Shown piece after piece: positions 4,581 through 60,059 of a stretch of DNA of 64,000 nucleotides. Each line of letters starts with the position of its first letter. Position 1 is the first letter of the stretch. The stretch is from Deltaproteobacteria bacterium (GTDB taxonomy: Bacteria; Myxococcota_A; Polyangia; HGW-17; JAJRWW01), in the NCBI GenBank assembly GCA_029938605.1, contig JAOZUO010000011.1, positions 17,474 to 81,473 on the forward strand. The letters are read 5' to 3'. The notes below the pieces were generated by a model. The model saw only the letters and a list, made by a program, of their open reading frames with translations, searched no databases and was not told the origin of the DNA. A program made the translations under genes and the position numbers.

Positions 4581-6572
4581 CTACCGCGGTGGTCCGAAGA
4601 CGCGAACTCCCAGCGTGGGACCCGCCACCAACCGTAGCCGACCGGACCGCGCCAGAGCCAGTCTGGACACCGGACCAGGCAGGTCCTGCCGACCGAGGAC
4701 CTTGCCCGTGCGCACGTCCCACAGCCGCACCGTCCGATCCGCCCCGCCGGTGAGCACGCGTCGACCGTCCTCGGACAGAGCCACCGCCACCACGCGGCCC
4801 CGGTGACCGCGCAGCTCCTTTTCGGGAGCCGAGCCCGGCAGCCGCCACACCCGGGCCAACCCGTCGGCACCACCACTGACCATCAGCGTACCTGCGGGGT
4901 GAAGCGCCAGCCCGGTCCCCCCCCCCACGTGAGCGGCCAACCGCACGCGTAGGGTCTGCCCATTCACATCCCAGCAGCTCACCCGCCCATCGGCGTAGCC
5001 AATCACCGCCAGGCCACCGTCCCCCGAAAGCGCCACGGCCGCCACGGGAGAGACCCCCGCGAAGGTCGCCACGGACCGCCCGCTGACCAGATCCCACACC
5101 CGGGCCTGCCCACCGGCGTCTCCGCTTAGAAGCCGGTTCCCATCCCCAGAAAAAGCCAGAGCCCGAAGGGGCTGGGCGTGGGCTTCGATGGTGCGATCCG
5201 CCGAACCGGTCATGGGCTGCAAAGTGACCCTTCCCGCGTCGTCCCCGACGGCCAACAGTCGCCCGTCGGACGCCAGGGCCACAGCCCGCACTCCCTGTCC
5301 AAAGGTGGTCAGGACCTTGCCATCAGCCAGACGCCACACCCGCACGTCTCCGCGCGCCGACACCCCGGCCACCAACCGGCCCGCGCCGTCGAGGGCAAGA
5401 TCCCGGGCCGCGCCGTTACGGGGCAGCAGCGTCCGCACCAGTCGCCAAGTCTTCGCCCGGGGCGACGACGGAGACTTCGGGTGGTCAATCCCCACCCGCT
5501 CCCCCGACCGGCCACACAGCGCCACGGTGAGCACCACTGCCACCAGGACCGCTCCCCCCGCAACCGGGATCAGCCACCGCTGCCACCGAGACCACCGCTG
5601 CCAAAGTCGCCCCCCCCGCCATCGCTGCCAGACCGTACGGCGGGGCTTTTTCACCTGGAGATCGCCGTCGACTTCGAACACCCCCGTGGTGGAGGAAGAC
5701 TCTCCCGGAGCCAGACCCGCCCCCTCGGCAGCATCCGTGAAGGCTTCGACGAAGTCCTCCACCTGGAAGTATCGATTCGCGGCCTCCCGGGACATGGCCT
5801 TCATGACCACGGCCACCACCGGGGCCGGCACCTCCTCGGGCAAGGGCGGCGGGTCCTGGGAAGTGATCTTGTTCAGGATCTGCATCGGCGATGAGCCCGC
5901 GAAGGGTCGCCGGCCGGCCAGCAACTCGTAGCAGATCACACCCAGGGCATAGATATCCGCGCGCTGATCCACATCCCTGCTGGAGTCGAACTGCTCCACG
6001 GGCATGTAGTGAGGCGTACCCATCATGGTGGCGGTACCCGTGAGATCACCGCCCTCCTCGACGATCTTGGAGATGCCGAAGTCGAGGATCTTGGGCACCA
6101 CCAGCGGGCCGTGCCCCGACTCGGCCAGGTAGATATTCCCGGGCTTGAGATCCCGGTGGATGATCCCCGCGGCGTGGGCCTCGGCAAGCCCCTCTCCCAC
6201 CTGGGTGATCAGGGTCACCACCTCCTCCACCGCCAGCGAACCCCGTCGCTTCAAAAACGCCGCCAAGGTCTCACCGTGCAACCACTCCATGATCAGGGCG
6301 ACGTAGCCATCGGCCTCGGTGGAAAAGTCGAGCACACGCACCAGGTGAGCGCTGTCGCACCGCGAAGACACAGTGGCCTCCCGCCGGAACCGCTCGCGGA
6401 TCTCCGCGTCGTGCAGGAACTCGGGGTTGAGCACCTTCACGGCCACATACGTGCCGATCTTCGTGTTCACCGCGCGATACACCGCCCCCATGGACCCCCG
6501 CGCCACGAACTCCTCCACCTTCCAGGTATCCTGGATCACACGACCGATCAGCGGATCATTCAGCACCATCAT
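4581..6572 (-). CDS. Membrane Ser/Thr protein kinase with WD40 beta-propeller
   Basis: A protein of about 663 residues. The N-terminal 270 residues are a Hanks-type kinase: glycine loop RGSMGAVYRA, Lys46 in VAVKVL, catalytic HRDLKPGN (from residue 139) and DFG (from 164). The activation end reads GTPHYMPVEQ instead of the usual YMAPEQ. A juxtamembrane stretch contains three WQRW motifs, then one transmembrane helix (about 334-353). The C-terminal part has seven WD-like blades (VRAVALASDG, LRALAFSGDG, VVAVALSEDG and others). A cytoplasmic kinase with a periplasmic propeller sensor is the likely layout. The start is the first of two adjacent ATGs at 6570-6572; upstream sense is lost. Its ligands and substrates are unknown. 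Confidence 0.92.
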   Translation of the reverse strand: MMVLNDPLIGRVIQDTWKVEEFVARGSMGAVYRAVNTKIGTYVAVKVLNPEFLHDAEIRERFRREATVSSRCDSAHLVRVLDFSTEADGYVALIMEWLHGETLAAFLKRRGSLAVEEVVTLITQVGEGLAEAHAAGIIHRDLKPGNIYLAESGHGPLVVPKILDFGISKIVEEGGDLTGTATMMGTPHYMPVEQFDSSRDVDQRADIYALGVICYELLAGRRPFAGSSPMQILNKITSQDPPPLPEEVPAPVVAVVMKAMSREAANRYFQVEDFVEAFTDAAEGAGLAPGESSSTTGVFEVDGDLQVKKPRRTVWQRWRGGRLWQRWSRWQRWLIPVAGGAVLVAVVLTVALCGRSGERVGIDHPKSPSSPRAKTWRLVRTLLPRNGAARDLALDGAGRLVAGVSARGDVRVWRLADGKVLTTFGQGVRAVALASDGRLLAVGDDAGRVTLQPMTGSADRTIEAHAQPLRALAFSGDGNRLLSGDAGGQARVWDLVSGRSVATFAGVSPVAAVALSGDGGLAVIGYADGRVSCWDVNGQTLRVRLAAHVGGGTGLALHPAGTLMVSGGADGLARVWRLPGSAPEKELRGHRGRVVAVALSEDGRRVLTGGADRTVRLWDVRTGKVLGRQDLPGPVSRLALARSGRLRLVAGPTLGVRVFGPPR

Positions 6573-6708
6573 AACAAGCCCGCAAATTCCACCCAAACCC
6601 GATGCTGCCGTAGGGAACCACCCACGTCAATACGCCCCTCGAGTTACGGGGCACCCTGGGCCGGGGCGACGGTTGTGTGGGGCGAGGCTTTCGGCTAGCC
6701 TGGGTCCC

Positions 6709-21930: not shown

Positions 21931-24177
21931 ATGACCGACGGTGCGTCGAAAATCAGGTGGCGACGGGTGGTAGCGAATCTGGCGGCCTTGGCCGTGGCCA
22001 TGGCCCTTGTGGCGGGCCTGGTGGCAGCCCGGGGCTGCGCGCGCAGCAGCGACGGAGGCCTCACCATGACCCTGTGGGCCACCCCGAAACCGGGGGAAGA
22101 CCGCCGGCCCCTGGTCAGGACGATCCGCCCCACGGTGGACCTGGACGCTCGGGAGGGGCCTCATTGGCCGACCGCGGCCCGGTCCGTGCGCTACGACGGC
22201 TGGATCTATTTCCCCCATCGCGGCCACTTCGTCTTGGCCCTGGGCCTGCGCGGACAGGCCCGGCTCACCCTGGACGAAGGAAGGACCCGGGTCATCCGGG
22301 CCCGGAGCGGTCCCATCACCACCGAGCACGGGCATCGGGTACACCCCCGACGTATCCACAAAGAACAGCGACTCCTGGACCGCGGCTGGCACCGGCTCAG
22401 GCTCGAGGCCCAGCTTCCCCAGGGGACGGGCTCCATCCGCCTGTTCTGGCTGCCCCCCGGACGACGCGGTGTCGTCGAGTACGTGGAGCCAGCCATGGTC
22501 CGGCCCCAGGGACCGAGGCCCAAATCACCGGGACACGCCGGCCCGGCCCCCCGGGATCGTTGGGTGGCCCTGGGGCTTCTGTCGGTGCTGGCGCTGCTCG
22601 TCGGGTTCTGGGCACGGGATCCCCTGCGCTCCTGGCTCCGGACCCTGCGGTCCAACCCCGAGGCGCGCATGGAGGTCGCTGCCTTGGTGGGGCTCTTCGC
22701 CGTCGCCCTGACCGCCCGCCTCTGGGGCCTGGGCGACGCCGGCCAGACCTGGGACGAGGACGTGTACTTCAGCGCCGGACGGAACCAGTGGCTAAACCTC
22801 CTCGCCGCCGACTTCCGCCCCAACTCCTGGCAGTGGAACCTGGAGCATCCGCCGGTTACGCGCTACCTGGTGGGGTTCGGCTCCCTGTTCGGCGAGCATC
22901 TGAACAACGCCCGCGCGGTCTCGGCGGTGGTGGGCGCGCTGGTGGTGCCGGTGACCTACCTGGCTGGGCGAGACCTCTTCGGAGATCGCCGGGTGGGCGG
23001 TGTGGCCGCCGCGGTGGCCCTGGCGCTGCCCACCCTCCTGGCCCATGCGCAGGTGGCCGGACACGAGTCCCCCTCGGTGCTGCTGTACACGCTCACCTGC
23101 TACCTCATGATCCGGGTCTTGCTGGCCGACGGTCCCGCCTCCGGCACCCTCATCGCCACTGCGATTTTCGGCGGCCTGCTGGTGGGTTGCCGCCTGGTGA
23201 ACCTCACCGCGTGGTTCTTCGTAGCCGCCCTCGCGGTCTGGATCGCCCTCCCTCGCCTCCGCAAGTCCCGGCCCCTACCCGTGACCCTGGTGCTCATGCC
23301 GCTGGTGGCTGGAGCCATATTCCTGTTCGTTTGGCCCCGGTTGTGGTCTAGCCCAGCCCGCCACCTGGGAGAGTTGCTCACCTATTGGCACCCGGATGTG
23401 GTGCAGAAAGAGTACTTCTGGGGACGACAGATCCGCACCTCCTGGGGATACTTCCCTCTGTACGCATTGGTCACCACGCCCACGGCGGTGCTCGGTGGTC
23501 TGGCCCTGTTCGGAGCTCGGCTGGGTTGGCACCGCGGCCGGGCCGAGGGGGCTCTGGCCCTGTGGATCCTGGCGCCCCTGGCGGCCACACCCCTGGTGCC
23601 CTTCCACCGGGACGGCATCCGCTACGTGCTCCCCATCGTGATTCCTCTACTCCTGGCGTCCGCCGCGGGCGCGGTATGGCTCGCCGACACATTGACGTCG
23701 GGTTGGCGGGCGTGGCGTAACTGGCGTCCGGGACCATGGCTCGCAGCCTTCCTCGCCGCCGTGGCCTTGGCCGGACCCACCGCCTGGGCGGCGCACCGGA
23801 TACACCCGTACTACCTCGACTTCTACAACGCCCCGAGCGGCGGGGGCCGAGCCGCCCTGGAGCAGCGACGCTTCGAATGGAGCTGGTGGGGCGAAGGTCT
23901 GGCCGGGTCTGTTCGTTACCTCCACCGCCACGCCAAACCCCCGGCGCTGGTGGGCATGGACGTACCCGCCCGCCACACCGTAGTGCTCCACCCGGACGTG
24001 AAGACCACCCGCCCCGGGACCCGTCCGCTGCCCGACTTCCTGCTCTACGCCGGCGAAGGGCTACGGAGCCTCTGGGATCAAAAAGCCCGCCGCTGGCGCC
24101 ACCCGCCCGGCTACCGGGTGGTCCACGAAGAGCGCGCCGAAGGCGTACCCCTGTCCCGCGTCTACCAAAAACAGTAA
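21931..24177 (+). CDS. PMT/ArnT-type membrane glycosyltransferase
   Basis: A 748-residue multi-spanning protein. After a first membrane helix (LAALAVAMALVAGLVAA) comes an exoplasmic beta-sandwich of about 150 residues (RYDGWIYFPHRGHFVLALGL, ARLTLDEGRTRVI) that resembles PA14/lectin-like sensing domains. About ten membrane helices follow. The loop after the first of these has the acidic motif TWDEDVYFSAG, typical of the GT-C catalytic loop, which takes a lipid-linked sugar. GT39/GT83 enzymes glycosylate proteins or lipid A outside the membrane. The extra N-terminal domain is unusual. It is divergent from the NtrC regulator gene with an 84-bp gap. Confidence 0.85.
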   Translation: MTDGASKIRWRRVVANLAALAVAMALVAGLVAARGCARSSDGGLTMTLWATPKPGEDRRPLVRTIRPTVDLDAREGPHWPTAARSVRYDGWIYFPHRGHFVLALGLRGQARLTLDEGRTRVIRARSGPITTEHGHRVHPRRIHKEQRLLDRGWHRLRLEAQLPQGTGSIRLFWLPPGRRGVVEYVEPAMVRPQGPRPKSPGHAGPAPRDRWVALGLLSVLALLVGFWARDPLRSWLRTLRSNPEARMEVAALVGLFAVALTARLWGLGDAGQTWDEDVYFSAGRNQWLNLLAADFRPNSWQWNLEHPPVTRYLVGFGSLFGEHLNNARAVSAVVGALVVPVTYLAGRDLFGDRRVGGVAAAVALALPTLLAHAQVAGHESPSVLLYTLTCYLMIRVLLADGPASGTLIATAIFGGLLVGCRLVNLTAWFFVAALAVWIALPRLRKSRPLPVTLVLMPLVAGAIFLFVWPRLWSSPARHLGELLTYWHPDVVQKEYFWGRQIRTSWGYFPLYALVTTPTAVLGGLALFGARLGWHRGRAEGALALWILAPLAATPLVPFHRDGIRYVLPIVIPLLLASAAGAVWLADTLTSGWRAWRNWRPGPWLAAFLAAVALAGPTAWAAHRIHPYYLDFYNAPSGGGRAALEQRRFEWSWWGEGLAGSVRYLHRHAKPPALVGMDVPARHTVVLHPDVKTTRPGTRPLPDFLLYAGEGLRSLWDQKARRWRHPPGYRVVHEERAEGVPLSRVYQKQ

Positions 24178-24241
24178 TTCGGAAAGACTCCTTTGGCTAC
24201 CATTGCCTCCGCTTGCCCCGGTGGAGGTTGTGTGCTTCAGT

Positions 24242-25564
24242 ATGCTCGCCATGACCAATGACCCCGGCGACACGCCTCCTGAGAAGCCCCCTGATAAGCC
24301 CCTTGGGCGCAGCCCGTTCGTTCCACCCGACGCATCCAACGCATCCAACGCATCCGACAATGCTACGCCCGACGATGCTGTCGCCACCGGAGCACCGCCC
24401 TCGGAGCCACCGGCGCCTACTGTAGAGCCGCCGACGCCCCATGTGGAGCCGTCACCGGCGGTACCGGTGGTGGGGCACCACGCGCCAGTAGCGTACCAGC
24501 CGGCACAGTTCCCGCCCCCTGAAGACAGCTGGGCGGCACCCTATAATCCCTACGGTCCCGGGCCCCAGAATGCATCGTCCGGGCCCGAGCCCGGGTCGGG
24601 CTACGGCGGGGGCGCGCTGCCCTACGGAGGCCCCAGCTCCCAGCAACCCTATTCGGCAGTGCCGCCTCAGGCCTATTGGCCCCAGGCCGGATATGTACCT
24701 CCGCCATCTCCGCCCTTCCCTGGAGTGCTGTGGTTCAGTCTGCTGGTGCTCATAGGCTTCTTCGGCCAGATCGTCGTGGGCGCTGGAGCGGTGATGGTGC
24801 TGCTGGCAATCGGACGCCCGAACGTCACGCCGGCAAACGCCCAGGACGTCATAAGCCAACTGCCCGTGGCCGCCTTCATGGGCGTCCTCCTCCTCGCCTC
24901 CTTGACCTGGCCGGCCGTGGCCCTGGTGACCGCCAGGGTCAAAAAAATTCTGACCCCCGACACCTTCCGGCTCCGCTGGCCGGGACTCTCGGTCTCGGTC
25001 CTGGCCGGCGTGTTGGGCCTGGCGCTGGTACCTCTGGCGCTGCTGCTCGAGAGCCTGGTGGCCCGGGTGGTTCCCCGAGGGGACAACGTCATCATCACCG
25101 TCATGGCCAAGGATCCCGGCGTGTTGGCCCTCACCCTGCTGGGCCTCACCTTGGTAGTAGCCGCGCCCGTGGGCGAGGAATTGCTCTTCCGCGGCCTGGG
25201 GTACCGGGGCATCGAGCGACGACACGGCCTCGGCCTGGGCGCCCTGGCGGTCTCTTTCATCTTCGCGGCGGTGCACATGAACGCCACGGGCTTTCTCGCC
25301 CTGTTCATGGTGTCCATGGCCCTGTGCTGGGTAACCACCAAGACCGGCTCCCTCATCCCGGCGATCCTCCTGCACGCCGCCTACAACGGGGTACAGTTCC
25401 TGATGATCCTCGCCAGCGACATCACGCCCGAGGTGGCCAAGAAGGCCGCCGAGTCCACCGACCTGGGCTTACCTCTGTGGATGTTCCCCGCCAGCCTGGT
25501 GATCTCCGGGGTGTGTCTGTTCGTCATTGGGAAGCTTGGTGACTCAACACGCGCAGTCGACTGA
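24242..25564 (+). CDS. CPBP-family (CAAX-like) intramembrane protease
   Basis: A protein of about 440 residues. The first 150 are disordered and rich in Pro, Gly, Tyr and Ala (a SNASNASD run, then PYNPYGPGPQ). About eight membrane helices follow. The catalytic motifs of the CPBP/Abi family are clear: EELLFRGLGYRG (EExxxR), FAAVHMN (FxxxH) and LHAAYN. Bacterial members act as membrane proteases, sometimes in bacteriocin self-immunity. The start is uncertain: ATG 24242, ATG 24251 and an upstream GTG at 24230 are all in frame, with GGTGGAGG near 24221. It runs toward the FHA gene 45 bp downstream. Confidence 0.87.
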   Translation: MLAMTNDPGDTPPEKPPDKPLGRSPFVPPDASNASNASDNATPDDAVATGAPPSEPPAPTVEPPTPHVEPSPAVPVVGHHAPVAYQPAQFPPPEDSWAAPYNPYGPGPQNASSGPEPGSGYGGGALPYGGPSSQQPYSAVPPQAYWPQAGYVPPPSPPFPGVLWFSLLVLIGFFGQIVVGAGAVMVLLAIGRPNVTPANAQDVISQLPVAAFMGVLLLASLTWPAVALVTARVKKILTPDTFRLRWPGLSVSVLAGVLGLALVPLALLLESLVARVVPRGDNVIITVMAKDPGVLALTLLGLTLVVAAPVGEELLFRGLGYRGIERRHGLGLGALAVSFIFAAVHMNATGFLALFMVSMALCWVTTKTGSLIPAILLHAAYNGVQFLMILASDITPEVAKKAAESTDLGLPLWMFPASLVISGVCLFVIGKLGDSTRAVD

Positions 25565-25609: not shown

Positions 25610-27508
25610 ATGCAGCTCACAGTGGACATCGCGCGGGGAGCCCGGACTGGTCAGCGATTGACCTTCCCAAACCAGACCGTCATCTCCATCGGCCGGGACC
25701 CAGGAGCCGACGTGGTGTTGGACGCCCACCAGGACATCCTGGCCTCCACTCGCCACGCGGAGGTGCGCCTCGGGGTCGACGGATCCATCACCTACCTCGA
25801 CCTGGGCAGCTCCAACGGCTCCTTCGTGAACGGGGCACCCGTCACCACCTGCACCCTCGTCCACGGCTCCGAGGTGGAGCTCGGCGCGGGGGGACCCTTG
25901 CTCCGCTTCTATCTGGAGGAAGTGGCCGCGCCCGGGGCGGTGGTCCCCACTCCGAGTCCCGTTGCGGCCGTCCAGCCCAGCCCCACCGCGGCTGCGCCCA
26001 TCGCCCCAGCAGCGGCGCCCGTCGCAGCGGCGCCCGTGCAACCGGTCACCCCCGAGGCGGACCCGGAGCACAAAGTCGGCGCGCGCACCGTGGCGCTCAT
26101 CGTAGAGGACGCCATCTCCAAGGAGCGCCAATCCTCGAGCAGGCGCGAGGCCAAGCCACGGTCCACGGAGTTCTTCCGCACCATCGTAGACAAAGAGGTG
26201 CGATCCAAAAACAAGGGGCTCTTCGCCGTCATCGTCCTGCTGGGCGTTCTGCTCGTTGGCGGTCTGGCGGCCGGCGCCTGGTTGTTTGTCGGCCAGCGCA
26301 AAAAAATGCAGAAGCAGAAGGACGACCTGACCCAAAAGCTCGACACGGAGAACAAGGCGCACCAAAAGGCCCTGGCCACGTCCAAGGCCCAGACCAAAGC
26401 CCAGATGGAGAAACTGCGGGCCGAGGCCGACAAACGCCAAAAGGACCACGATGACGCCCTGACCAAGCTGCGAGCCGAGAACGAGAAGATCAAGGCCATG
26501 GCCAAAGACAAGGGGCCGCAGATCTCCAGAATGAACCGCGGCAACCTGTACCTGCTCGCCTACGGAACGCTGGACGTCCCACGGTACGCCACCTGCACCG
26601 CCTTCGCCGTGGCCAAGCGCATGTTGGCCACCAACGCCCACTGCGTGGTGGCCCTGCGCCAGGGCGCGAGCCGGGGCAGCTACTTTTACGCCGTACAGAA
26701 CGAGAACCCGTCCTTCAAGGCCAAGGTGGTGTCCACCATGAAGCACGCCGGGTACCACCGGACCTTCCTGCGCCTCACCCCGGACGTGGGGCTGGTGCAG
26801 GTGGACAAGGACCTGCCCAGCCTCGTGCAGATCGCCTCGGGCGAGGAGCTCAAACAGGTGCAGCGTGGAAGCCTGATGTTCTCCTTCGGCTTCCCGGGGA
26901 GGCTGGCGGATCCGCGCAAGCCCATCGCCACCCTGGTGCATGGTCGCATCGGTCGCATGACCCGTTACGACGCCTCCATGGGGACCTTCGCGCAAAGCCA
27001 ACTACTGCAGCACTCGGCCCTGTCCATGGGCGGCGCCTCGGGGAGCCCGCTTTTCAACGACGCCGGTAAGGTCATCGGCGTACACGCCGGCAGCTACACC
27101 TCCCGGTCGAGCTCCACCTTCTTCGATCCCTCCACGCGCACGCCCAAACGCATCATGATGGCGCGCCGCCTCGGCTACAAGTTCGGAATCCGCATCGACG
27201 CCCTGTCGGTCATCCTCACCAAGCCGCGCTGGGAGAAGCTCGAGAGCAAGGGGCAGTTCACCGCGGTCAAGTCCATCCCTCCGGAACTGCTGCGTGTGAA
27301 CTGCAAGGCCTACGCCCGTAAATTCTCCACCTGCTCCAAGGGCAAGGTGGTCCGCGCCACCACACAGCGCCGCTGCGACATCTCCAAGAAGATCCTCACC
27401 CACTCCTCGGTCTTCTACCTCCGCTTCGCCAAGTGCATCCTCGCGGTCCGAGGCTGCTCCCGCACCAAGCTCAGCAAGTGCATCACCGCCGCCAATCCGA
27501 AGAAATAG
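25610..27508 (+). CDS. FHA-domain membrane-anchored trypsin-like protease
   Basis: A 632-residue protein. The N-terminal FHA phospho-threonine-binding domain (residues 1-100) has ISIGRDPGADVVL, STRHAEV and GSSNGSFVNG. A Pro/Ala linker leads to one membrane helix (about 204-228) and a charged coiled coil (229-300). Beyond it is a chymotrypsin-fold domain: His344 in TNAHCV, Asp392 in TPDVGLVQVD and Ser477 in GGASGSPLF, an intact triad. The C-terminal 100 residues carry six or more cysteines. A cytoplasmic FHA domain linked to a periplasmic protease suggests control by Ser/Thr phosphorylation, and a Hanks kinase is encoded 19 kb away. That link is an inference. Confidence 0.92.
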   Translation: MQLTVDIARGARTGQRLTFPNQTVISIGRDPGADVVLDAHQDILASTRHAEVRLGVDGSITYLDLGSSNGSFVNGAPVTTCTLVHGSEVELGAGGPLLRFYLEEVAAPGAVVPTPSPVAAVQPSPTAAAPIAPAAAPVAAAPVQPVTPEADPEHKVGARTVALIVEDAISKERQSSSRREAKPRSTEFFRTIVDKEVRSKNKGLFAVIVLLGVLLVGGLAAGAWLFVGQRKKMQKQKDDLTQKLDTENKAHQKALATSKAQTKAQMEKLRAEADKRQKDHDDALTKLRAENEKIKAMAKDKGPQISRMNRGNLYLLAYGTLDVPRYATCTAFAVAKRMLATNAHCVVALRQGASRGSYFYAVQNENPSFKAKVVSTMKHAGYHRTFLRLTPDVGLVQVDKDLPSLVQIASGEELKQVQRGSLMFSFGFPGRLADPRKPIATLVHGRIGRMTRYDASMGTFAQSQLLQHSALSMGGASGSPLFNDAGKVIGVHAGSYTSRSSSTFFDPSTRTPKRIMMARRLGYKFGIRIDALSVILTKPRWEKLESKGQFTAVKSIPPELLRVNCKAYARKFSTCSKGKVVRATTQRRCDISKKILTHSSVFYLRFAKCILAVRGCSRTKLSKCITAANPKK

Positions 27509-51658: not shown

Positions 51659-55831
<4,173 letters not shown>

Positions 55832-55880
55832 GACCAACCTGTCCTTACGACCGCCTTAGGGGCGGAACGAAATCGGTTCT

Positions 55881-60059
<4,179 letters not shown>

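Follow-up and report, generated by a model that had tools for sequence, protein, structure and literature searches.

The window, the 64,000-nucleotide stretch of DNA that was analysed, carries a gene whose product joins an FHA domain, a membrane helix and a trypsin-like protease domain in one chain. The product is probably a single-pass inner-membrane protein, in which a cytoplasmic FHA domain docks on phosphothreonine partners, a serine protease domain lies in the periplasm, and a PP2C phosphatase brings about release. Myxobacteria possess very large Hanks-kinase repertoires, the outputs of which are, to our knowledge, mostly unknown. A phosphothreonine reader on the inside coupled to a protease on the outside would constitute a direct physical output of kinase signalling at the envelope.

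Domain layout and predicted structure

The gene starts with ATG, with a Shine-Dalgarno-like AAGGGA located 7-12 nt upstream of the start. The gene, its parts and the gene preceding it are arranged as follows:

24203-25564, + strand: CAAX (Rce1-like) membrane protease gene, whose end lies 45 nt upstream of the FHA-protease gene
25610-27508, + strand: FHA-TM-trypsin gene including the stop codon, a single ORF of 632 aa
25682-25885, + strand: FHA domain, residues 25-92 (Pfam FHA, E 1.1e-12)
25928-26074, + strand: linker rich in Ala/Pro/Val, residues ~107-155, on the predicted cytoplasmic side and predicted to be disordered (pLDDT <50 over most of it)
26078-26134, + strand: conserved juxtamembrane segment, residues 157-175 (GARTVALIV...), on the predicted cytoplasmic side (AlphaFold helix 158-175)
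26216-26290, + strand: membrane helix, residues ~203-227 (hydropathy; AlphaFold helix 204-312)
26294-26545, + strand: long charged helix from membrane to protease, residues 229-312, a possible coiled coil (AlphaFold)
26594-27082, + strand: trypsin-like protease domain, residues 329-491, with H344, D392 and S477 (Pfam Trypsin_2, residue table, HtrA1/V8 folds)
27302-27481, + strand: helical tail with six Cys, residues 565-624, seen in this genus only

In Pfam, the FHA domain (PF00498) scores 48.6 bits against a cut-off of 20.7, and the protease domain scores 58.8 bits against 27.6 as Trypsin_2 (PF13365, E 1e-15) and 39.5 bits as PF00089, while a PDZ domain is absent from the protein. The FHA contact residues G28 and R29, S46, H49, S67, and N69 and G70 are all present, from which binding of phosphothreonine peptides is predicted; proteolysis is likewise predicted from the fold and the complete H344/D392/S477 triad. 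Strongly hydrophobic 19-residue segments start only at ~202-210, with a mean Kyte-Doolittle value of at most 2.67. The layout given in the sequence-only reading, with an FHA domain, a membrane helix and an intact trypsin triad in one chain, is thereby confirmed by Pfam, hydropathy and the residue check. The cysteines lie at positions 81, 329 and 345, followed by 565, 575, 589, 609, 616 and 624 in the tail, and the C329-C345 pair is likely a disulfide.

In the AlphaFold model (28 sequences, mean pLDDT 78), the FHA and protease domains are both confident, and the helix 204-312 leaves the membrane and enters the protease domain without a break. By Foldseek, the protease resembles HtrA1 and V8-type proteases and the FHA domain resembles GarA, with RsgI9 (7sjy) as a further hit. 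A PDB profile search gives the same picture, with the GarA FHA as the closest solved FHA, and no chain among its best 60 matches both the FHA and the protease parts. The coiled coil of the sequence-only reading is plausible, but the heptad signal is modest in this very charged stretch and a coiled coil is not a feature of the family. The Cys-rich tail, described there as an addition, is indeed present and is found only in two genomes, both of the window's genus. The relatives differ in the stretch that links membrane and protease, which measures ~20 to >100 residues, and many of them have a shorter helix here or none. Because this length varies and the tail is limited to one genus, both the coiled coil and the Cys tail fall outside the common design.

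HtrA/DegP (S1C) and V8-type glutamyl endopeptidases (S1B) share the trypsin-like fold and the GxSGSP motif and provide the best solved-structure matches. The window protein differs from HtrA/DegP in lacking the PDZ domain and in its extra FHA domain, predicted to be cytoplasmic, and the HhoA/HhoB/HtrA model, which has a cut-off of 450 bits, scores 17.4. MarP of Mycobacterium is a membrane-anchored periplasmic trypsin-like protease that lacks an FHA domain and has several membrane helices at its N-terminus, whereas the window protein has one helix; the MarP model scores 16.1 bits against a cut-off of 250. In YscD (Yop-YscD_cpl) and GltG, a cytoplasmic N-terminal FHA domain precedes a membrane helix, but on the outside they carry ring or motility domains in place of a protease, and both models remain below cut-off (32.2 bits vs 33.2 and 45.5 vs 650, respectively). 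RsgI9 of Clostridium thermocellum (S1C-NTF2) combines a cytoplasmic regulatory domain, a membrane helix and an outer S1C-type domain; its cytoplasmic part is an anti-sigma domain, where the window protein has an FHA domain. The uncharacterised Bacteroides thetaiotaomicron protein NP_811686, whose FHA-FHA-Trypsin architecture is given once in a 2008 survey (PMC2605481), also holds FHA and trypsin in one chain and, by that description, is set apart by its two FHA domains. No paper on the FHA-TM-protease family or its operon, and no experiment on any of its members, was found in the open-licence literature, which is weak as a sign of absence; on this weak evidence, the parts are all known while their combination and the conserved operon are absent from the literature searched. 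An anti-phage role was considered and rejected: RT-Protease XI (PADLOC), a defence system in which a reverse transcriptase is joined to a protease, matches through the protease part alone (303-499, E 1.7e-9), and no reverse transcriptase domain is matched by Pfam.

Family spread, membrane topology and conserved residues

In an even sample of the class Polyangia (Myxococcota), queried with the single protein, relatives of the protease half occur in 40 of 193 genomes from 11 families, usually with the whole layout, and a further 12 of the 193 match through FHA only. Seventeen further homologues are present in 59 related genomes, nearly all with the complete layout, and an alignment query recovers 31 loci in genome contigs where the earlier single-protein query gave none. 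The protein family also occurs in the complete genomes of cultured Sorangium cellulosum and Minicystis rosea, as well as in Byssovorax, all of which we take to belong to Polyangia. Among the genomes searched within the window's own order, it is restricted to the window's own family; outside the class, three genomes show a match among 284 of the phylum.

An FHA domain inside and a protease outside the inner membrane are strongly indicated for the family by charge bias, even Cys counts and an invariant Cys pair, which together support the exported protease of the sequence-only reading. The N-side flank of the membrane helix is the more positive one in 48 of 55 relatives (mean +3.0 vs +0.4). Of these 55, 51 have an even number of Cys C-terminal to the helix, the commonest case being just the two conserved residues, and this pair (329/345) is invariant in all 56 protease domains. 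Its positions correspond to the C42-C58 disulfide beside the active His of chymotrypsin-type enzymes. In the window protein the flanking charges are balanced and thus ambiguous (+3 inside vs +4 outside), and the topology assigned to it is therefore that of the family.

The residue counts cover 48 loci, with 56 protease domains and 48 FHA domains. The triad reads HDS in 51 protease domains, HDN in three and HDA in two, and the FHA set of Gly-Arg, Ser, His, Ser and Asn-Gly is intact in 40 of the 48. Since the catalytic Ser is missing from five protease domains and the key Arg from several FHA domains, neither activity nor phospho-binding appears to be essential everywhere. In two members of family f25 (L090 and L093), the catalytic Ser is replaced by Ala (GTAGSP), yet both retain the FHA residues and the neighbouring phosphatase gene. 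In part of group f11 (L047, L091, L094 and L098), the FHA Arg is lost, with GS or GA in place of GR; these four loci have no PP2C neighbour, and downstream lies a conserved gene for a small membrane protein.

Tandem copies occur in Sorangium, Minicystis, Byssovorax and f14 (L072, L076, L080, L096, L099, L104, L065 and L078). In the first copy the FHA domain is missing or degenerate and the triad looks active; the second has a good FHA domain, and its Ser is changed to Asn in three genomes. This pattern resembles split roles, one copy possibly acting as reader and the other as enzyme. The juxtamembrane motif is found in 39 of 48 FHA-bearing relatives. Its T160 (GxRTVxxMI) was considered as a GarA-like self-docking phosphosite and rejected, as it does not covary with FHA integrity: relatives that have lost the FHA Arg, or have no FHA domain at all, retain the motif, and the f8 group lacks it despite an intact FHA domain.

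Phosphatase-linked gene order and proposed mechanism

Of the 48 loci, 30 have a same-strand gene for a PP2C Ser/Thr phosphatase upstream of the FHA-protease gene, an arrangement in relatives that supports the proposed link to Ser/Thr phosphorylation and is the best evidence for it, though not found at the window locus. Its identity is given by Pfam PP2C_2 and PP2C matches in two representatives. The linked loci belong to families f8, f13, f14, f16, f18, f21, f22, f25 and f26, together with Sorangium and Minicystis. At L039 a gap of 9 nt separates the end of the phosphatase ORF (7631) from the protease start (7641). As the genomes hold few PP2C genes (5-17 in each of 12 checked), chance adjacency falls well below 1% per gene. 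The FHA Arg and Ser are intact in 29 of 30 phosphatase-linked copies compared with 13 of 18 others; the association (Fisher p 0.02) ignores kinship and is only suggestive.

The gene 5' of PP2C usually encodes a double zinc ribbon and two FHA domains. In f13 and f16 the next gene after the FHA-protease is AAT/C45-type acyltransferase-like; at L038-L041 such a gene lies on the same strand as the FHA-protease. The neighbours in the f11 group are the small membrane protein gene and often a lipoprotein-like gene, with no Pfam match. According to a survey of the phosphatomes of Myxococcus and Sorangium, the order of genes near phosphatase genes is little conserved (PMC2887360); the PP2C-FHA-protease arrangement recurs over Polyangia families. 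FHA genes also sit beside a PP2C gene in the actinobacterial pstP-fhaA-fhaB-pknA-pknB locus, which acts in envelope growth control (PMC6554272). That locus contains kinases, rodA and pbpA but no protease (PMC6554272), in contrast to the zinc-ribbon-FHA-FHA, PP2C and FHA-TM-protease genes of the relatives described here. The conserved phosphatase gene order narrows the candidate genes to a short list.

In the proposed mechanism, the FHA domain would dock at the membrane on threonine-phosphorylated partners, which would be Hanks-type kinases themselves or proteins that they phosphorylate. Kinase activity would thereby recruit or cluster the protease at particular envelope sites. The periplasmic domain, carried on the long helix, would act on envelope substrates, and the docking would be reversed by the PP2C phosphatase, whose gene is adjacent in most relatives. 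Docking, rather than an allosteric change, would be the control step. The phosphatase gene order of the relatives suggests that phosphorylation steers the protease in the cell envelope. More tentatively, with odds we put a little on the negative side, the zinc-ribbon-FHA adaptor, PP2C and FHA-TM-protease may form a class-wide inside-to-outside switch, through which phosphorylation controls periplasmic proteolysis.

Signalling could also run from the outside in, the periplasmic protease domain serving as a sensor or cleavage site and the FHA domain tying a phospho-signalling complex to the membrane, in the manner of transmembrane anti-sigma factors with an outer protease domain. The match to the S1C-containing transmembrane regulator RsgI9 and the retention of the protease fold in the HDN and HDA members fit such a binding or sensing module. 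However, the intact triad of 51 of 56 domains places catalysis under selection in nearly all of them, and no transcription or sigma-factor gene is a conserved neighbour, which leaves this alternative rather unlikely. It is more doubtful still that the protein is an ordinary HtrA/MarP-type envelope quality-control protease whose FHA domain, degenerate or incidental, serves as an anchor and has no part in phospho-signalling. HtrA proteases are the nearest fold, and the FHA domain is indeed degenerate or missing in some members, but the preservation of its ligand residues, particularly Arg and Ser in the phosphatase-linked copies, the conserved PP2C gene order, the absence of PDZ and the scores of the HtrA and MarP models far under their cut-offs all argue against it.

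Very improbable is a membrane-bound FHA-protease with both domains on the cytoplasmic side. The ambiguous charges of the window protein would permit this arrangement, but a single membrane helix separates the two domains, the relatives show an N-in bias, and the invariant Cys pair at the His loop and the even numbers of Cys are signs of an oxidising compartment.

The window locus

Neither a phosphatase gene nor a zinc-ribbon-FHA gene lies beside the FHA-protease gene at the window locus, so the phosphatase link is drawn from relatives. On the upstream side, a glycosyltransferase-like (PMT) gene and the CAAX protease gene (21931-25564, + strand) lead with short gaps up to the FHA-protease gene, and the three may share one transcript. 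The downstream PEGA and TPR genes are convergent. The sister genome has both of them as well, on a contig that stops short of the upstream side; the same-genus relative of the window gene sits on a short contig.

The host genome has ~160 Hanks-kinase matches and at least five matches to the operon-type PP2C. One of these kinases, a Hanks-type kinase with a WD40 propeller, is encoded within the window itself at 4584-6596 (- strand). Further along, rpoC and rpoB adjoin at 51659-60059 (- strand), each 1392 aa as called, an equality of length that is coincidental and reflects no duplication.
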